Below, in pieces: positions 3,801 to 18,419 of a DNA stretch of 46,604 nucleotides. The DNA is from Kiritimatiellia bacterium (GTDB taxonomy: Bacteria; Verrucomicrobiota; Kiritimatiellia; CAIQIC01; Lenti-01). The DNA is taken from the NCBI GenBank assembly GCA_017540905.1, contig JAFYAC010000102.1, forward strand, positions 1 to 46,604. The letters run 5' to 3'. The notes below the pieces were generated by a model that was given only the letters and a program-made list of their open reading frames with translations, was not told the origin of the DNA and made no database searches. The position numbers were made by a program, and so were the translations under genes. The stretch's first letter is position 1; the number at the start of each line of letters is the position of its first letter.

Positions 3801-3884
3801 ATGAAAACGGAAAAACAAGTGAAGACCGATTTCGGAAATACCCTGACCGCCTTTGAGCGTCAGGCGCGGAGAGGAGGTGTTTGA
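3801..3884 (+). CDS. Possible 27-aa leader peptide upstream of the H1-like gene
   Basis: An ATG at 3801 opens a frame (MKTEKQVKTDFGN through RRGGV) that ends in TGA two bases before the ATG of the H1-like gene. The last codons overlap that gene's GAGGAGGT ribosome-binding site, so translation of the leader would run over the site. A CCTGAC/GTCAGG hairpin (3842-3864) sits just before the site. No clear Shine-Dalgarno precedes this ATG, so it may be only an untranslated leader. Confidence 0.3.
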   Translation: MKTEKQVKTDFGNTLTAFERQARRGGV

Positions 3885-3886
3885 CG

Positions 3887-4225
3887 ATGGCAACCACGAA
3901 GAAAGCTCCGGCCAAGGCCGCTCCCGCCAAGAAGGCGGCTGCGAAGCCCGCTCCGGCCAAGAAGGCCGCCCCGGCCAAGAAGGCGGTCGCGAAGCCCGCT
4001 CCCGCCAAGAAGGCCGCTCCGGCCAAGAAGGCGGCTCCCGCGAAGAAAGCGGTAGCGAAGCCCGCCCCTGCCAAGAAGGCTCCGGCGAAGGCCCCCGCGA
4101 AGAAGGCCGCTTCGGCCAAGAAGCCCGCTCCCGCCAAGAAGGCGGCTGCGAAGCCCGCCCCGGCCAAGAAGGCCGCTCCGGCGAAGAAGGCTCCTGCCAA
4201 GAAGGCCCCCGCCAAGAAGAAGTAA
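3887..4225 (+). CDS. Lys/Ala/Pro-rich histone H1-like nucleoid protein
   Basis: The 112-aa product is almost entirely made of PAKKA, AAKPAPAKKA and KAPAK repeats and ends in KKAPAKKK. This composition is that of the C-terminal tails of eukaryotic H1 and of bacterial H1-like DNA-binding proteins. It is very basic, probably disordered, and expected to bind DNA non-specifically in the cytoplasm. The ATG at 3887 is chosen because GAGGAGGT lies 8 nt upstream; a TTG at 3881 is too close to that site. It has its own promoter and a strong terminator. The repeated codons make the gene prone to length change. No globular domain is present. Confidence 0.8.
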   Translation: MATTKKAPAKAAPAKKAAAKPAPAKKAAPAKKAVAKPAPAKKAAPAKKAAPAKKAVAKPAPAKKAPAKAPAKKAASAKKPAPAKKAAAKPAPAKKAAPAKKAPAKKAPAKKK

Positions 4226-4647: not shown

Positions 4648-5472
4648 TCACTTGCCCCGGCGGGGACGGAGAACGAGGGTGCCGAGGAGGAGGAGCGCGA
4701 TGGTGGCGGGCTCGGGAACGGCGGGGCCTTCGGCGGAAATGTTGTCGAAATGGAGGGTTTCGGCTTGGGTGGAGCCGGCGACGAGGGCGGCGATGGAGGT
4801 GACCGCGGAGGAGTTGTCGAGGGACAATTGGCGGGTGATGGGGGAGGAATCGGAGGTGATGGACAGGTCGATGTTCATGCCGGTGGAAAAGACGGACCAG
4901 GAGATGGAGTAATCGGCGGTGACTGGGGTGTCGGGGTCGTAGATGCGGTCGATGGGTTCGTAGATGGTCTGGCCGCCGGCACCGATGGCGTACCAGAAGC
5001 CGGGATATGTGCCGGCGTCGGCTTCGGCGGTGGTGACGCCCCAGCGGAGGAGTTCGGCGTCGTTGGCGGAGTAGAGGGCGAAGCCGGAGAAGTGGGTCGT
5101 GGAGTCGTGGGTGGCGGTGACGGAGAAGGTGCCGGAGGCAAGGGCGAGGTCATCGGCGAAGGAGCGGCCGACGGCGGCTTCGCCCACGCCGGCGTTGGCG
5201 TAGATGGCGAAGCCGTCGGCGTCGAGGGAGCGGTTGGGGGTGGCGGAGGAGCCGACTTGGCGCCATTCGCCGAAGCCGGTGCCGCCGTTGTCGCCGAGGT
5301 TCCAGGTCGCCTGGGTGGCGTAGGGTTCGTTGGTGGAGGCGTCGGTGGCGGTGAAGGCGCGCGCGGTGGGAGGGAGGAGGAGTGCAAGGAGGGCGAGGAG
5401 GACGCCCGCGTTTCCGCGGGCGCGCGGGACGGCGGGGGGGATGCGGGAGGGGGTTGGATGGCGGGTGTTCAT
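4648..5472 (-). CDS. Secreted PEP-CTERM surface protein
   Basis: The 274-aa protein starts with a basic stretch and a signal peptide (GVLLALLALLLPPTARA, cut likely before FTATD). It ends with the PEP-CTERM sorting signal: VPEP, a hydrophobic helix (ATIALLLLGTLVL), then RPRRGK. Such proteins are exported and processed by an exosortase; no exosortase gene lies in this window. The body is rich in Thr/Ser/Asp and looks like a beta-sandwich, with no named domain recognised. The ATG overlaps the stop of the upstream TSP3 gene (ATGA), so translation is probably coupled and would share that gene's on/off state. It is the last gene of the minus-strand surface locus. Confidence 0.85.
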   Translation of the reverse strand: MNTRHPTPSRIPPAVPRARGNAGVLLALLALLLPPTARAFTATDASTNEPYATQATWNLGDNGGTGFGEWRQVGSSATPNRSLDADGFAIYANAGVGEAAVGRSFADDLALASGTFSVTATHDSTTHFSGFALYSANDAELLRWGVTTAEADAGTYPGFWYAIGAGGQTIYEPIDRIYDPDTPVTADYSISWSVFSTGMNIDLSITSDSSPITRQLSLDNSSAVTSIAALVAGSTQAETLHFDNISAEGPAVPEPATIALLLLGTLVLRPRRGK

Positions 5473-6290
5473 TGGATGGAGAGGCGCCAGAGGGCGGTGA
5501 GGGAGGTGGTGTCGAGGTAGAGGGTGGCGGGGGAGCCGGTGCCTTGGAGGCGGGTGTGGGTGGGGGCGGTCGCGTCTTCGAGGGAGAAGGGACAGGAGGT
5601 CCAGGCGAAGGCGCCGGTTTCGTCGAGGGCGAGGGGGGCGGTCTGGACGGTGTAGACCTTGCCGTAGGTGGTCGGGAAGGTGAGGGCGTACATGCCGCCG
5701 GGGGTGAGGGTCAGGGCGGAGGTGCCGAAGCGGTCGCTTGCCAGCCAGGGAAGGGTCCCGGCGCGGTATTCGGCGAGGTTGGTCTGGCCGTCGCCGTCGA
5801 GGTCGGCGGTGGCGTCGGCCGGGTCGGTGGGGTCGAGGCCGTTGGCGCGCTCCCAGGCGTCGGACATGCCGTCGGCGTCGGCGTCTTCGCCCGCGACGAT
5901 GCGCAGGGCCACGGCTTCGCCGGGGGCGCCGACGGGCGGGACTTCGCAGCTCTCGACCTGCCGGGTGCCGGCGGAGTCGGTGACCCAGACGGTCAGGATG
6001 TCGCCGGCATCGACGGCGTAGGGGACGTAGTTGCCGGTGTCGGACGGGTCGCTGTCGTAGGGGACCGCGAGGCGGAAGTTGATGCCGGGGGCGATGGCGC
6101 CCGCGATGGTCGTGCGGGCGACTTCCTGGGTTCCGCGCAGGAGGAAGATGTCGGCGCCGGATTTGTAGACCTGGCCGTAGCGGTCGCAGGCCTGGCCGTA
6201 GTAGAGGAGCATGGGGCGCGGGATGCCGGCGAGGGAGAGGGTGGAGGTGAGAGCGACGGCGGCGGCTAGGGCAAGAGTGACAAGTGACAA
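5469..6290 (-). CDS. Secreted TSP3-repeat protein, probably in phase-off state
   Basis: The frame encodes a hydrophobic signal peptide (LALAAAVALTSTLSLAGIP), a domain with GQACDRYGQVYKSG, and a calcium-binding thrombospondin-type-3/dockerin-like segment (about residues 133-180, DADADGMSDAWE and DLDGDGQTNLAEY). It is probably secreted with a calcium-stabilised fold. The only start in frame is a TTG at 6290 with no ribosome-binding site, inside a 7-bp repeat array. A good AAAGGA-N7-ATG start lies at 6355 but is out of frame by one base. One extra 7-bp unit would join them into a 297-aa protein. Downstream it overlaps the PEP-CTERM gene by 4 bp. The function of the N-terminal domain is unknown. 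Confidence 0.7.
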   Translation of the reverse strand: MSLVTLALAAAVALTSTLSLAGIPRPMLLYYGQACDRYGQVYKSGADIFLLRGTQEVARTTIAGAIAPGINFRLAVPYDSDPSDTGNYVPYAVDAGDILTVWVTDSAGTRQVESCEVPPVGAPGEAVALRIVAGEDADADGMSDAWERANGLDPTDPADATADLDGDGQTNLAEYRAGTLPWLASDRFGTSALTLTPGGMYALTFPTTYGKVYTVQTAPLALDETGAFAWTSCPFSLEDATAPTHTRLQGTGSPATLYLDTTSLTALWRLSIQ

Positions 6291-6299
6291 GTGACAAGT
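6276..6299. repeat. Heptamer array (AGTGACA)3 over the TSP3 gene start
   Basis: AGTGACA occurs at 6276, 6283 and 6290, followed by AGT. Read along the gene (minus strand) it is TTGTCAC, which has no stop codon in any frame. A change in copy number would therefore shift the frame without terminating translation. This is the opposite orientation to the other heptamer arrays in the locus. Confidence 0.85.
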
Positions 6300-6352
6300 T
6301 TGCGGTGCGCGGCGGCGGATGCCGCCGCGGGAAGGATGGAATGATTGGAGAG

Positions 6353-6368
6353 CATGGGGTGGTCCTTT
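6353..6368 (-). promoter_or_regulatory. Strong translation start signal, currently out of frame
   Basis: Minus-strand AAAGGA (6363-6368), a 7-nt spacer and ATG (6353-6355). Its present reading frame gives 29 codons (MLSNHSILPAAAS onward) and stops at TAG (6266-6268), just inside the TSP3 signal peptide. It is the only good start signal between the TSP3 gene and the gene upstream. Confidence 0.65.
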
Positions 6369-6383
6369 CTGAAATATTGTTTA

Positions 6384-6413
6384 CCGCATCTTGTCACTTG
6401 TCACTTTTCACTT
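6384..6413. repeat. Heptamer array with flank, first 30-bp direct repeat
   Basis: The segment CCGCATC followed by TTGTCAC, TTGTCAC, TTTTCAC and TT is repeated identically at 6817-6846. The two copies bracket the four-helix-bundle gene, whose TGA stop (6401-6403) lies inside this copy. Confidence 0.85.
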
Positions 6414-6784
6414 TGTTCGCGTCGCAGGCGCGACTCCACTGTCTTGCACGTGGAGGAGAGCATCTTGAGGAGGTCGTTGCAATCGGTGCGGAGGGGGGCG
6501 AGGCGGGCATCGGGAAAGAGGGCGGCCCGGGAGAAGAGGTCGAGCCAGTATCGGGTTTCGGAGCACTCCTTGAGGGCGATCTTGCATTTGTTGAGGAAGT
6601 CGCGGAGCGTGGGGGCGAATGCCGCTTCGGCCAGGTTGGCCCCGATGGCGGTGCCGCTGCGGAGGACTTGGTCGGCCACGGCGTATTCTTTCCGTTCCTC
6701 GCGCAATGCCTTGGCCAACGCCATGATCCGCACGGCGAAGTCCATGCTCTTTTCGCGCAACGGGCTGTCTTTCATGCCGTCCAT
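6401..6784 (-). CDS. Four-helix-bundle protein (S23/Avd-like fold)
   Basis: The 127-aa protein matches the four helix bundle family (TIGR02436 type). Visible features are MDFAVRIMALAKAL, then the signature RSGTAIGANLAEA, then LRDFLNKCKIALKECSETRYWLDL in the third helix. Family members occur in 23S rRNA intervening sequences and as Avd accessory proteins of diversity-generating retroelements, but no reverse transcriptase, template repeat or rRNA is present here, so the role is open. The ATG at 6784 has only a weak GGGAACGGA site. The gene is flanked by identical 30-bp direct repeats and sits among secreted-protein genes although it has no signal peptide, which suggests insertion as a cassette. 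Confidence 0.85.
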   Translation of the reverse strand: MDGMKDSPLREKSMDFAVRIMALAKALREERKEYAVADQVLRSGTAIGANLAEAAFAPTLRDFLNKCKIALKECSETRYWLDLFSRAALFPDARLAPLRTDCNDLLKMLSSTCKTVESRLRREQSEK

Positions 6785-6816
6785 CGGTCCGTTCCCAAGA
6801 GTTTCCTTATGACCCG

Positions 6817-6851
6817 CCGCATCTTGTCACTTGTCACTTTTCACTTGTCAC
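6817..6851. repeat. Heptamer array, second 30-bp direct repeat
   Basis: CCGCATC is followed by TTGTCAC, TTGTCAC, TTTTCAC and TTGTCAC (units at 6824, 6831, 6838, 6845). The first 30 bp equal 6384-6413. The array abuts the TAG stop of the 2511-aa gene. Read along the genes it is GTGACAA, which gives TGA in every frame within 21 nt. Confidence 0.85.
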
Positions 6852-14387: not shown

Positions 14388-15011
14388 TCATGCTCCTCGC
14401 TTGCAAAATGGGTTCACACTCCGCGCGTCCGCGCGGCTCGTCCCCCTCCCCTCCAAACTCACCCAATTCTTCCTGATGGACCCCACCGCCCGCCTGCAAT
14501 GCTCCCCATTCCGGATCAGCCGGTCGTGGTATTCGCCCTGCCACACCGCCCCCTGGCGTCCCGGCAACCGGTTCAGCAAATGCGCCGACACGCCCTTCCA
14601 CTCCTGCAACAGCGCCGGCAGCCCGGCCCGGTCGGGCAGCTCGCACAACACATGGACGTGGTTCGGCATGAGCACGTAGGCATGGAGCCGGCACCGGCCG
14701 TCCACTTCCGAGCGGCCCAAAACCCCGTCCATGCAACGGCGGGACGCTTCGCCCCGCAAGATGCACTCCCCGTGGTCCGCGTCCAGCCACTCCTCCATGC
14801 TGCGCGGGAACCGCGCGGCGTATTCCGCCACCTCCCTCCCCGCCTTCGCGCCCACATTCGCGCCCCTCTCCCCTCCCATTTGCCCCATGACGGGCGAGGC
14901 GCCCGTCCTCCCAGTCCTGCTGCCGGGGAGACGCGCCTCCGGCCACTTTTCAGGCCGGCTCATGCCCGTTCCATCCCTTCCATGGCTGTTTTTGCCGTCA
15001 ATTTCACCCAT
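14388..15011 (-). CDS. REP-associated tyrosine (Y1/HUH) transposase, possibly N-terminally altered
   Basis: The C-terminal part matches the transposase IS200-like Y1 family, RAYT subgroup. It has the metal-binding HUH motif in LHAYVLMPNHVHVL (His118, His120) and the catalytic Tyr161 in VWQGEYHDRLIR. The segment MEEWLDADHGECIL is also typical. The usual first beta-strand region is missing. It is replaced by a low-complexity stretch translated from a REP-like palindrome (14889-14907), so the start at 15011 is uncertain. The enzyme nicks single-stranded DNA at palindromic repeats. The gene sits between secreted-protein genes, with its TGA one base before the ATG of the giant gene, as though cotranscribed. 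Confidence 0.8.
   Translation of the reverse strand: MGEIDGKNSHGRDGTGMSRPEKWPEARLPGSRTGRTGASPVMGQMGGERGANVGAKAGREVAEYAARFPRSMEEWLDADHGECILRGEASRRCMDGVLGRSEVDGRCRLHAYVLMPNHVHVLCELPDRAGLPALLQEWKGVSAHLLNRLPGRQGAVWQGEYHDRLIRNGEHCRRAVGSIRKNWVSLEGRGTSRADARSVNPFCKRGA
14889..14907. repeat. REP-like palindrome inside the 5' part of the transposase gene
   Basis: gacgggcg and cgcccgtc form a perfect 8-bp stem with a 3-nt loop (agg). The palindrome is followed by further GC-rich sequence. It lies within the frame of the RAYT gene, in a part without homology to RAYT proteins. Confidence 0.6.
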
Positions 15012-15041: not shown

Positions 15042-16100
15042 TCACTCCACCCTCATGATGTACCAGAGGGCCTTGTAGGGGGGGAGGTTCTCGTGGGGGG
15101 CGCCCTTGTCGCCGGTGCCGGAACCGCCCGCGCCGGTGGTCTGGGAAGTCGTCCAGCCGGACCAGACGCCGCGGTTGTCGTTGGCGGCGGCCGCCGGCTC
15201 GTCGGTGTTGTCGTGGCAGTTCTTCTGGTAGCCGTGGGAGTGCGACGGCATTTCATCCCAGGAGAGTTCCACGGTGGCGGCGCCGCCCACGTCCCAGGGG
15301 TTGTAGCTGTTGCCCGCGCCCACGGGGAAGCGGCCGGAGAGGTTGGGCGTCGTCACGCCGTTCACCACCGAGCCGTCGCACGCCGCCCAGCCCGCCGGAA
15401 CGTCGTCCTTTTCGCCGTGCCAGAGGATGATCGTCCCGACCGGCACCGGCCCCAGCCCCGAGAGCGACCCGGCCTTCAGCCCGCCCGCCGCCGAGACGTC
15501 CCCGGCGACCGACATCGTGCCGGTCACCTCCAGGCCGCCGGAGACCTCCGCGCCGCGCGCCGACAAACTCTTCGTGCGGGTTTCCCCGTCCACCGTCAGC
15601 GACCCCGCCACCTCGAAATCGGCGCGGCTGCCCGTCGCGCCGTCCGCGAACAGCGCATAGGGGACCGCCGCGACCGCCGCGCGCGGCGACATCGCGCCCG
15701 GATGCCCGTCGATCCGGCATTCGATCCAGCACGCCTGTGCGCACAGCACCGTGTCCAGCGGCGCATCCGGCGCCCCTTCCGGCGCTTGCAGGGCGTCGCT
15801 CAGCCGGACGCTGAACGCGCCGTCCGCGTCCAGCACGGCCGGGGCCTTGCGCATCCAGAGCGCGTCGCCGCCCTCGGCCGCCGCGTACAGCCCGACCACG
15901 AGCGTCAGCGGCCCCGACACCGCATTCCCGTCCTTGTCCACGATGCTCCCGGTGTATTCCCATTCCAGCGGCGACGCCGTCCCGCGCACCGCCTGCGTCG
16001 CCATCCACCGCCCGTCCGCCTTGGGCACGGGCCGGGCCGCCGCCGCCACCGCGCACGCGCACACCACCCCCGCCGCCAACCCCATCACCATTCTCTTCAT
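15042..16100 (-). CDS. Secreted fibre-like protein with phage-tail-collar domain (paralog 1)
   Basis: The 352-aa protein has a signal peptide (MKRMVMGLAAGVVCACAVAAAA). An N-terminal module follows (EYTGSIVDKDGNAVSGPLT to GAFSVRLSD) that ends in the VPYALFA motif. Then comes a short repetitive stalk (SLTVDGETRTKSLSARG, VTGTMSVAGDVSAAG). The C-terminal collar domain has PVGTIILWHG, VPAGWAACDGS, TPNLSGRFPVGAG and MPSHSHGY, and the protein ends in ENLPPYKALWYIMRV. Collar domains normally tip phage tail fibres; the signal peptide here points to a secreted adhesin-like fibre instead. The start at 16100 has GAGGAG 7 nt upstream. It is one of three tandem paralogs. Confidence 0.85.
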   Translation of the reverse strand: MKRMVMGLAAGVVCACAVAAAARPVPKADGRWMATQAVRGTASPLEWEYTGSIVDKDGNAVSGPLTLVVGLYAAAEGGDALWMRKAPAVLDADGAFSVRLSDALQAPEGAPDAPLDTVLCAQACWIECRIDGHPGAMSPRAAVAAVPYALFADGATGSRADFEVAGSLTVDGETRTKSLSARGAEVSGGLEVTGTMSVAGDVSAAGGLKAGSLSGLGPVPVGTIILWHGEKDDVPAGWAACDGSVVNGVTTPNLSGRFPVGAGNSYNPWDVGGAATVELSWDEMPSHSHGYQKNCHDNTDEPAAAANDNRGVWSGWTTSQTTGAGGSGTGDKGAPHENLPPYKALWYIMRVE

Positions 16101-16138
16101 CTTTCTCTCCTCGCTCATCTCGTCAAATTCCACCGCAA

Positions 16139-16166
16139 CTGGTCACTGGTCACTGGTCACTGGTCA
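16139..16166. repeat. Heptamer array (CTGGTCA)4 between collar paralogs 1 and 2
   Basis: There are four perfect units at 16139, 16146, 16153 and 16160. The array is preceded by ccaccgcaa and followed by the stop-codon hairpin of the next gene. It is a GG variant of the TTGTCAC array found at the other junctions. Confidence 0.85.
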
Positions 16167-16168
16167 CT

Positions 16169-16195
16169 GTGAAATGGCGCGAAGCGCCATTTCAC
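16169..16195 (-). terminator. Hairpin overlapping the stop codon of collar paralog 2
   Basis: gtgaaatggcgc (16169-16180) and gcgccatttcac (16184-16195) form a perfect 12-bp stem with a 3-nt loop. The TGA stop (16192-16194) lies in the stem. No T run follows on the minus strand, so it may be an mRNA-stabilising hairpin or recombination site rather than a classical terminator. An identical stem lies at 17308-17334. Confidence 0.5.
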
Positions 16196-17217
16196 CGCAC
16201 CCTCATGATGAAGCACACCGCCAGGTACGGCGGCCGGTTCTCGTGTGCCGCGCCATTGCCGGCGGAGTCGGTGGTGGCGTCGTCGGGGGAGCCGCCCGTG
16301 CTGTTCTGCCACCAGTCGCCGCTCATCCAGCCCATCCAGGGGACCGGATGGTAGTCGCGGGTGCTGGCCGTCGTGTAGTCGTGGGTGTGCGAGGGGATCT
16401 GGGCGACCGTGAGGGCCACCGAGTTCGTGCCGCCGGTGTCCCCGACCTCGTAATGGAACTCGTCGTCGTCGCCGCCCGCCCCCACCGGGAAGCGGTCCGT
16501 CAGGTCCGGCGTCGTCATCCCGTTCACCGTCTGGCCGTTGCACAGCGCCCAGCCGTCCGGGGGGTTGTCCTTGTCCATCCACATCGCGATGCTCCCCACG
16601 GGCGGGATGCCGTCCCCCTCGAAGCGCGGGGCCTCGACCGTCCCCGACACGCCCGCCGGCGAGTCCGCGTCCGCCAGCTCCGCGCCGCCCTCGACCGCGA
16701 GCTCGCCGAACGACGCCCCCGCGACGAACTTCGCCGCGTCGGCCACCGCCACCGCATCGCCCGCCGAGAGCGCCCCCAGCACGGGGAACGCGAGCGGCGA
16801 CCGCCTCGCCCACCGCGCCAGCAGCGCCTGGGGCGCCGAGGTGAACTCCACGCGCGGCGCGATCGCCGCCCCGTGCCCCTCCACCTGCATTTCCAGGAAC
16901 CGCTGCGGCTCCGGCGGTTCCGCAAACGCCTCCATCAGTTCGTCCCCGCCCTCCAGCCACGCATGGAACGACCCGTCGGCCCCGCACCACACCTCCACGT
17001 CCTTGCTCCACGACGGATCGCCGCCCGCCGCGTCCGTGAACACCCGGATCGACGCCTGCTGCGCCCCCGTCAGCGGTCCCGACACCGGATCGCTCAGCAC
17101 CCCCTGGTACACCACCGCCCCCGGCACCGCCTCCTCCGCCGCCGTCTCTGCCCACGCCGCCGCCGCCGCGCACCCCGCCCACGCCCAAACCACCATCTTC
17201 TTCATCATCGTCTTCAT
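16192..17217 (-). CDS. Secreted fibre-like protein with phage-tail-collar domain (paralog 2)
   Basis: The 341-aa protein has a signal peptide (MVVWAWAGCAAAAAWAE) and the N-terminal module seen in its neighbours (VVYQGVLSDPVSGPLTGAQ, then APQALLARWA). The C-terminal collar domain shows PVGSIAMWMD, PPDGWALCNGQ, TPDLTDRFPVGAGG and IPSHTHDY, ending HENRPPYLAVCFIMRVR. It is probably an extracellular trimeric fibre, by analogy with collar proteins. The ATG at 17217 follows ACAGGTGA. The 3' end overlaps a perfect hairpin and is followed by a heptamer array, the same cassette layout as paralog 3. Binding partner or substrate unknown. Confidence 0.85.
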   Translation of the reverse strand: MKTMMKKMVVWAWAGCAAAAAWAETAAEEAVPGAVVYQGVLSDPVSGPLTGAQQASIRVFTDAAGGDPSWSKDVEVWCGADGSFHAWLEGGDELMEAFAEPPEPQRFLEMQVEGHGAAIAPRVEFTSAPQALLARWARRSPLAFPVLGALSAGDAVAVADAAKFVAGASFGELAVEGGAELADADSPAGVSGTVEAPRFEGDGIPPVGSIAMWMDKDNPPDGWALCNGQTVNGMTTPDLTDRFPVGAGGDDDEFHYEVGDTGGTNSVALTVAQIPSHTHDYTTASTRDYHPVPWMGWMSGDWWQNSTGGSPDDATTDSAGNGAAHENRPPYLAVCFIMRVR

Positions 17218-17277
17218 CGCTCACCTGTCCCGTTTCACGGCATCCCGTCTCTCGTCACTCGTTTGTTTCCACCGAAA

Positions 17278-17305
17278 CTTGTCACTCGTCACTTGTCACT
17301 TGTCA
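17278..17305. repeat. Heptamer array (four units) between collar paralogs 2 and 3
   Basis: Units CTTGTCA, CTCGTCA, CTTGTCA and CTTGTCA lie at 17278, 17285, 17292 and 17299. They are preceded by ccaccgaaa and followed by the hairpin, in the same order as at 16139-16195. Confidence 0.85.
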
Positions 17306-17307
17306 CT

Positions 17308-17334
17308 GTGAAATGGCGCCCCGCGCCATTTCAC
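17308..17334 (-). terminator. Hairpin overlapping the stop codon of collar paralog 3
   Basis: The 12-bp stem gtgaaatggcgc (17308-17319) with gcgccatttcac (17323-17334) is identical to that at 16169-16195, with a CCC loop. The TGA stop (17331-17333) lies in it. Confidence 0.5.
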
Positions 17335-18326
17335 CTCACCCTCATGATATACCGCACCGCATAATACGGCGGCCGGTTCTCGTGCGCCTCCCCGCCGCCC
17401 GTGGCGGAAGTCGTGGCGGTCGTCGCCGACTTCCAGACATGCCCGTCGTTGTTGTCGGCCAACGCCTTGCCGTCGGTCGTGCACGACGGATAGGAGTAGC
17501 CGTGGGTGTGCGGCGGCATCTGGGAGTACTCCAGCGTCACGCTCGAGGCGCCGCCCGTCTCGCCGACGTCGTGCCCGTCGCCGGCGCCCATGACGAACAA
17601 GCCGCTCAGGTCGGGCGTGCCGTTGTCCCCGTTGCATACGGCCCACCCGTCCGGAACGTCCTCCTGCGTCCACAACAGGATGCCGCCGACGGGGATCACC
17701 CCCTTCCCCTCGTTCGGCTTGCCGGGCGGAACCGTGACCGCGCCCGCCGCCTTCAAGGCGCCCAGCGACACCCCGCCCGCCGCCACGGTCAGGTTCGACA
17801 CCGCCGCGCCGTCCGCCGAAACCCTGCCGCGGAACTCCGCGTCGTCGGCGACGGACATCGTCGCGCCGGCCGCGAAACCGCCCTCGCCCCAGAGCGCGTA
17901 CTGCGCCAGGAACGCATACGGCGCCGTCGGCACCCGCAGCCTGGGCTTGAGCGTCCCCACCCCCTCCACCTCCAGCTCGAAGTAGCGCGCCGTCCCCTGG
18001 AACGCGTCGATCAGCTTCTCCTCCGCGGGGCTGCCGAGCTTCGAGCCGCCGTCGTCGAGCACCAGATTGAACATCCCGTCCCCCGTGCACGTCACCGGGA
18101 ACTCCCTTGCCCACACCAGCGTCCCCCCTTCCGGCGCGTCGTACAGCCGGAACGCCACGTGCTGGATGCCCATCAGCGGCTGCGGCGCCCCCTCCACCAC
18201 CCTCGCCAGCCGCGCCTGGAAATTCACCGTCCCCGGCACGATCCCCCCCACCTCCGCCGCGCACTCCCACGCCGCCGCCGCAACCAGCACCACCGCCGCA
18301 ACCGCGGCCCGAACACTCGCTCTCAT
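17331..18326 (-). CDS. Secreted fibre-like protein with phage-tail-collar domain (paralog 3)
   Basis: The 331-aa product starts at the ATG at 18326, which follows AGAGGTGA. The same frame is open further up into the heptamer array but lacks a start signal there. It has a signal peptide (MRASVRAAVAAVVLVAAAAW), the N-terminal module (NFQARLARVVEGAPQPLMG, then TAPYAFLAQYA), a short stalk, and a collar domain (PVGGILLWTQ, VPDGWAVCNGD, TPDLSGLFVMGAGDG, MPPHTHGY) ending ENRPPYYAVRYIMRVR. It is the first and shortest of the three tandem paralogs. The three share nearly the same last codons, so gene conversion or recombination between them is plausible. Confidence 0.85.
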   Translation of the reverse strand: MRASVRAAVAAVVLVAAAAWECAAEVGGIVPGTVNFQARLARVVEGAPQPLMGIQHVAFRLYDAPEGGTLVWAREFPVTCTGDGMFNLVLDDGGSKLGSPAEEKLIDAFQGTARYFELEVEGVGTLKPRLRVPTAPYAFLAQYALWGEGGFAAGATMSVADDAEFRGRVSADGAAVSNLTVAAGGVSLGALKAAGAVTVPPGKPNEGKGVIPVGGILLWTQEDVPDGWAVCNGDNGTPDLSGLFVMGAGDGHDVGETGGASSVTLEYSQMPPHTHGYSYPSCTTDGKALADNNDGHVWKSATTATTSATGGGEAHENRPPYYAVRYIMRVR

Positions 18327-18377
18327 TCTCTTCACCTCTTTCTCGAAACTCCCGCGCCCGCCGGGCGCGCACCGCAA

Positions 18378-18419
18378 CTTGTCACTTGTCACTTGTCACT
18401 TTTCACTCGTCACTCGTCA
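18378..18419. repeat. Heptamer array (six units) at end of the 588-aa gene
   Basis: CTTGTCA (three times), CTTTTCA and CTCGTCA (twice) run from 18378 to 18419. The TGA stop of the 588-aa gene (18403-18405) lies inside, and the last residues of that protein (LVTSDE) are encoded by the repeats. Confidence 0.85.

Follow-up and report, generated by a model that had tools for sequence, protein, structure and literature searches.

Architecture of the locus and its reading frames

The analyzed window, a stretch of 46,604 nucleotides, comes from a rumen bacterium in whose genome a seven-letter DNA repeat is dispersed and, at the locus described here, builds the start of a probably secreted protein (Table 1). 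Along the minus strand, a four-helix-bundle gene ends within one array of this repeat and is followed by a Shine-Dalgarno sequence and start codon (AAAGGA-N7-ATG), a GC-rich palindrome, the motif CACCGCAAA and three CTTGTCA units, termed here the target array. The target array exceeds chance expectation: TTGTCACTTGTCAC, allowing at most one mismatch, is matched 13 times in the window and never in 100 dinucleotide shuffles. As the initial annotation had read from the sequence, the frame opened by the ATG runs through the three units to a TAG, and the frame of the downstream TSP3-motif protein lies one base off; the ATG frame is 29 codons long. The array begins 57 nt after this ATG, such that a 7-bp unit, not a multiple of three, sits in the 5′ coding region. 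Within the TSP3 frame itself, from the preceding in-frame stop to 120 nt beyond the array, the only starts are the in-array TTG (6290) and one ATG further in. Two further points of the annotation were borne out: the target array holds no stop codon in the gene direction, unlike the neighboring arrays, which read AGTGANN and thus contain TGA, and the TSP3 stop and PEP-CTERM start overlap as ATGA at 5469–5472, an arrangement kept in the window and in both congeners described below.

Table 1 Positions of genes, arrays and signals in the window
Feature	Position	Strand	Basis or remark
PEP-CTERM protein gene	4648..5472	-	ATGA overlap with TSP3 gene
TSP3-motif protein ORF, as listed from in-array TTG	5469..6290	-	Body intact
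TAG closing the 29-codon ATG frame of the three-unit allele	6266..6268	-	Sequence
Target array, three CTTGTCA units in gene direction	6278..6298	-	Sequence; one of six such arrays in the window; in the initial annotation's register TTGTCAC, 6276-6299
Predicted RNA hairpin, arms 6383-6406 and 6282-6306, Shine-Dalgarno and ATG in loop	6282..6406	-	Folding
GC-rich inner palindrome GCGGCGGC..GCCGCCGC, left of the array's ACCGCAAA flank	6308..6329	-	
Shine-Dalgarno AAAGGA (6363-6368), N7, ATG (6353-6355)	6353..6368	-	Same in 3/3 species
Inverted element copy, AGTGANN in gene direction, at 3′ end of four-helix-bundle gene	6390..6413	+	
Four-helix-bundle gene (23S_rRNA_IVP, PF05635), flanked by two arrays	6401..6784	-	Missing at locus in one relative
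Four-unit array at stop codon of large LamG gene	6823..6850	+	
Four CTGGTCA units	16139..16166	+	
Four-unit array	17278..17305	+	Identical in one congener
Six-unit array	18378..18419	+	Four units of other types in both congeners

The names given to the two downstream proteins rest on weak matches and a tail recognized by eye. Neither protein matched Pfam, the NCBIfam matches of the TSP3 protein and the NCBIfam PEP-CTERM match of its neighbor were weak and below cut-off, and the PEP-CTERM tail (VPEPATIALLLLGTLVLRPRR) was identified by eye; the genome does encode an exosortase (PF09721, E 1.6e-52). Nearby in the window, positions 3881–4225 encode a repetitive, lysine/alanine/proline-rich product that we take to resemble histone H1-like proteins.

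Congeners carry four units at the target site

A scan of 84,980 species genomes recovered four loci, two of which are full-length orthologues, one in a sheep-rumen Kiritimatiellae genome (L001, genome G002) and one in the rumen genome RUG11196 (L002, genome G001). Of 97 relatives searched at the DNA level, at least 59 showed some match, and among the matches listed only the three genus genomes, including the window's own (G000), were matched over nearly the full length. The comparison of unit number between relatives that the initial annotation had called for shows four units in both congeners (CTTGTCA in G001, CTCGTCA in G002) against three CTTGTCA units in the window. In both congeners, the Shine-Dalgarno sequence and ATG open into a protein of 296 or 297 codons with a leader that appears signal-peptide-like by eye, such that these natural four-unit alleles bear out the prediction that one added unit would give a full-length protein with a signal peptide. 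The same ATG, which the annotation had favored as the real start, also looks like the ancestral and conserved one because the CTCGTCA units of G002 contain no TTG; an in-array TTG thus appears unlikely as the ancestral start.

Downstream of the array, the TSP3 body retains 97–98% amino-acid identity to its relatives, with no frame break over 252 codons except for a one-codon gap in G001. Its dN was estimated as 0.009–0.013 by NG86 and was similar by YN00, and its dS as 0.05–0.09 by NG86 and 0.39–0.72 by YN00, a wide disagreement between the two dS methods. Lineage-specific codon changes (synonymous/non-synonymous) amount to 10/4 in G001, 7/2 in G002 and 3/3 in the window, the last being too few to show either relaxed or kept selection. 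The window's TSP3 gene is not an old pseudogene, although these numbers cannot tell whether it is silent now.

The adjoining PEP-CTERM protein has 274 amino acids in the window and 412 and 414 in the congeners, and its N-terminal half differs from theirs although the neighboring TSP3 protein is so highly conserved. On the other side of the target array, G001 has no four-helix-bundle gene (window 6401–6850; L002 4820–4890) and carries instead a single hybrid array that corresponds on its left to the window's 6823 array and on its right to the 6390 array. This looks like a clean deletion through recombination between two direct heptamer arrays, with the arrays acting as recombination substrates. 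The gene as an array-bounded mobile cassette was rejected as a rule because the genome has five PF05635 genes above cut-off and these arrays occur within ~1.5 kb of the window's copy only. Inversion of the start region between inverted arrays found no support, its orientation being identical in all three species, and a search of viral contigs for relatives of the gene yielded 13 pattern stretches, none of which was confirmed.

A dispersed, genus-enriched heptamer element

Rather than a lone slippage tract, the target array represents a single copy of an element enriched in the genus, ACCGCAW-(CTNNTCA)n-CT, in which n is usually 4. Six arrays of this kind lie in the window (starting at 6278, 6390, 6823, 16139, 17278 and 18378). 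Overlapping matches to GTCACTNGTCACTNGTCAC number 16 in G000, 36 in G001 and 27 in G002, two in each of G003 and G004, and zero in the other 13 of the 18 family genomes; a reversed-pattern control gave two in G000, where CTGGTCA arrays can themselves yield such control matches, and none in the other 17. Within its family, the element thus occurs mainly in this genus.

To describe the element, we collected 77 arrays from the three genus genomes, a sample seeded by CTTGTCA or CTNGTCA patterns in which orthologous arrays are counted separately and from which CTTTTCA-only arrays (several exist) are absent except as orthologues. Units in this sample follow the consensus CTNNTCA, varying at positions 3 and 4; the flank to the left closes with CCGCAT in 33 of the 77 arrays and with CGCAAA in 14, and CT comes after the last unit in 69. 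Four units is by far the commonest state (51 arrays, compared with 6 of two units, 12 of three, 7 of five and 1 of six), and it is also the commonest number at non-coding sites. Furthermore, 47 arrays have an unbroken series of at least three CTNGTCA units; four units occur in 33 of them and three in 10, against simple length decay, which would favor three. On neither strand does any of the 77 arrays contain four runs of three G or C, and only three have any such run.

Arrays are also polarized relative to gene ends, as judged with genes called by a simple codon-usage score for which five window genes served as the training set. Within 50 bp of stop codons, 24 arrays read AGTGANN on the coding strand versus 2 reading CTNNTCA, and within 50 bp of start codons, 14 read CTNNTCA versus 2 reading AGTGANN; each of the four exceptions fits the rule for its other neighboring gene. 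Six of the 77 arrays fall within called genes, each in the CTNNTCA orientation, and for 33 no called gene starts or stops within 50 bp. The genes beside arrays are, by eye, of mixed kinds.

Across the class, the heptamer pattern was found in 61 of 289 Kiritimatiellae genomes, a count for which the reversed-pattern control is uninformative, since the reversed pattern picks up those very arrays in a shifted register. A RAYT transposase mobilizing the arrays as a REP-like element was not supported, since Y1_Tnp occurs in 247 of these 289 genomes versus 61 for the heptamer, and one genome (G073) has heptamer matches and no Y1 match. The window itself encodes an IS200-like Y1 transposase at 14388–15011 (PF01797, E 2.6e-6), with no heptamer array in the stretch read around the gene. 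Several related features were also seen. Tandem TCACTNN arrays whose variable bases differ from those here are present in many families of the class, and some far exceed four units (for example, on contig 9 of G020); a different heptamer family (ATTTCAG/ATTTGGG-like) sits immediately upstream of another four-helix-bundle gene of the window's own genome (L007 1360–1420); and window positions 15042–18392 hold three similar-looking genes in a row, two of them with weak phage tail-collar domain matches, with heptamer arrays between them and two of the arrays followed by the same GTGAAATGGCGC hairpin. A sequence-string search with 14-mers among open-licence papers found no literature on these heptamer units, and no report of phase variation in Kiritimatiellae was found among open-licence papers.

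Arrays as apparent parts of signal-peptide leaders

In the four-unit form of the target, the left flank encodes His-Arg-Lys and the four units encode LVTCHLSLVT (HRK-LVTCHLSLVT), so that the element would contribute the charged segment and the beginning of the hydrophobic segment of a signal peptide. By eye, the element appears to form part of the signal peptide in four genes. A second leader gene reads HRK-LVTCHLSLVT-LALAVFSATAGEYV in G001, and in G000 and G002 it carries four CTTTTCN units in the same frame, encoding HRT-LFAF(H/L)FSLFT, such that four units are present in all three species. A lipoprotein-like gene likewise reads in frame through four units in both G001 (CTCGTCA) and G002 (CTTNTCN). 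The leaders of these two genes are less certain because no in-frame start with a Shine-Dalgarno sequence was found for either. The remaining gene, in G001, has a Shine-Dalgarno sequence and ATG and then reads in frame through four units; its G000 copy starts inside a CTTTTCA array at a contig end, where the units cannot be counted.

Arrays are also translated outside leaders. In a fifth gene (L074), the array of G001 sits in a proline-rich linker where G000 and G002 have other in-frame sequence, and the L097 ORF contains another array. In two species, close to contig ends, a four-unit array stands in frame upstream of one coding segment (L105 1522–1549 and L096 66–93), which we take from its sequence to be glutamate-synthase-like. 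Across the sample, 6 of the 77 arrays are preceded within 100 nt by a Shine-Dalgarno sequence and ATG from which the frame, whichever it is, stays open to the array, and four of these have forward coding sequence behind the array. Three of the four are in frame (the targets of G001 and G002, and L072), and the window's is out of frame.

Unit sequence changes more often than unit number

To compare the two modes of change, we tallied 12 orthologous array sets by hand, one of which (L103/L075) aligns on one flank only; L129/L130 (truncated at a contig end), L074 (array in one genome) and pairs aligning only over short repeat flanks were excluded. Unit sequence differs in 7 of the 12 sets (the target, 6823, 6390, 18378, the second leader gene, the lipoprotein-like gene and L103/L075). 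Unit number differs in three (3/4/4 units at the target, 6/4/4 at 18378, and three at 6390 versus two in G002) and is constant in nine, with type changed and number kept in four of the seven type-changing sets. Both of the other leader arrays with counts from more than one species have four units in the same frame in each. Unlike slippage-driven tracts, these arrays therefore change type more readily than length, an observation that argues against a fast contingency switch and fits a lineage-specific loss of one unit.

This comparison bears directly on the proposal, made in the initial annotation, that the array is a classic contingency locus; on this view slippage would frequently move it between three and four units and so turn the secreted pair off and on within the population. 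The geometry is suitable, the unit length not being a multiple of three and the array lying close to the start codon; three-unit (off) and four-unit (on) alleles were both found, between species; and homogenization within arrays (all TTG in one, all TCG in another) suggests array turnover. The proposal was nonetheless not sustained by a locus with only three or four units, in a genus where four is the commonest number, at non-coding sites as well, and number varies less than unit sequence. The phase-variable (ATCTTTC)n tract of hmw1A in Haemophilus influenzae shares with the target a seven-base tandem unit associated with a secreted surface protein, whose expression varies in hmw1A; however, in the strains and constructs covered by the portion of that report drawn on here, it has 13–24 units and tunes expression from the promoter/5′UTR (PMC8262952), whereas the three or four units here lie in a coding leader and would act on the frame. 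A fast contingency switch is hence possible but not favored, and we consider it unlikely, noting that the three target alleles in the data, one per species, do not directly distinguish rare loss from frequent switching.

Alternative readings of the three-unit allele

Initiation at TTG 6290 could in principle keep the gene on by bypassing the frame break, since CTTGTCA arrays of at least three units hold TTG in every frame. This codon is in frame with the TSP3 protein and gives MSLVTLALAAAVALTSTLSLAG with a hydrophobic core, and the TSP3 body is intact. We nevertheless judge such a bypass improbable, as no Shine-Dalgarno sequence precedes the TTG, the resulting leader has no positive charge and the TTG is missing in G002. 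A −1 frameshift at the stop was set aside, no familiar slippery site being seen by eye.

A different reading holds that the inverted array at 6390–6413 and the target array form a long RNA hairpin around the ribosome-binding site, linking that site to translation of the preceding gene, which has its stop codon within the hairpin's upstream arm, with unit number tuning the stem. Predicted minimum free energies are −65.5 (window), −64.7 (G002) and −69.4 kcal/mol (G001), with z-scores of −11.4, −7.4 and −10.3, respectively, and 0 of 200 shuffles as low in each. In the comparison between species, 99% of cells are paired, both sides have changed in 3 of 32 pairs, and the GGA of the Shine-Dalgarno sequence is mostly paired in all three (unpaired probability 0.00–0.28). 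The AUG, however, is about half open (unpaired probability 0.38–0.74), and the covariation value was reached by 18 of 500 shuffles. Neighboring inverted arrays within 800 bp share their main unit type in 7 of 14 pairs, three of these at this locus, and homogenization of all arrays at the locus would give the same both-sided changes; because the third array, outside the hairpin, also changed type, local homogenization explains the paired changes equally well. We regard a regulatory hairpin as quite unlikely.

Finally, an assembly or consensus error in the unit count is very improbable: the genome is a draft metagenome assembly (84% complete, 178 contigs), but other four-unit arrays on the same contig were assembled, the large LamG gene and the TSP3 body show no frame breaks, and the array spans just 21–28 bp, less than the length of common short reads.

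Discussion

The closest known repeats to this element are the heptameric GGGNATC and GGGGA(C/T)T repeats of Xanthomonas and Nostoc (Rehm et al. 2015, PMC4692102), whose defining G-tract feature it does not have. In the portion of that paper drawn on here, those repeats show a four-unit preference, polarity at gene ends (antisense before starts, sense after stops) and convergent pairs, and the authors explain the number four by G-quadruplexes and consider involvement in phase variation unlikely (PMC4692102). The preference for four units, overall and among the CTNGTCA arrays (33/47), the opposite orientations at stops and starts, and the occurrence of convergent pairs are the same here. Unlike those repeats as there described, the unit here is CTNNTCA, and some copies are translated as leaders. 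With no array holding four G- or C-runs, G-quadruplex formation cannot explain the number four in this genus, and the same four-unit preference and polarity in a repeat without G-tracts questions the quadruplex explanation for the G-rich heptamers (PMC4692102).

More tentatively, four-unit heptamer arrays could be a general bacterial class (period seven, number four, gene-end polarity) that is independent of G-quadruplexes, in which some copying or conversion process swaps the unit type of a whole array at a fixed site while keeping four, and in which cells re-use copies as signal peptides with a number-dependent frame; we hold this broader view as doubtful but conceivable. Repeat elements tolerated in frame inside proteins are familiar from Rickettsia palindromic elements and other in-frame inserted repeats. 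The arrays in the L074 linker and inside the L097 ORF are like these in being in frame, and differ from them in having a tandem heptamer rather than a palindrome as their core and in showing no mobile ends.

The observations on the target locus are probably best explained by a dispersed four-unit repeat that was taken up as part of a signal peptide and that, in the window lineage, lost one unit and thereby broke the normal start, rather than by a fast switch. In the four-unit state, the Shine-Dalgarno sequence and ATG would read into the TSP3 protein, and the PEP-CTERM gene would follow via the ATGA overlap. In the window lineage, the same start would yield only a 29-residue peptide because one unit is missing; TSP3 output would be abolished or limited to what the in-array TTG can initiate, and the PEP-CTERM protein, whose translation is coupled, would probably be made in smaller amounts. 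We infer that the four-unit form is ancestral, that the change affects the amount of protein and that it was a rare event rather than a fast switch; the three-unit state itself could be an off-state or a simple loss. For this rumen bacterium, one lost unit would decide whether a secreted protein pair is made, and the locus suggests how a dispersed repeat becomes a signal peptide.
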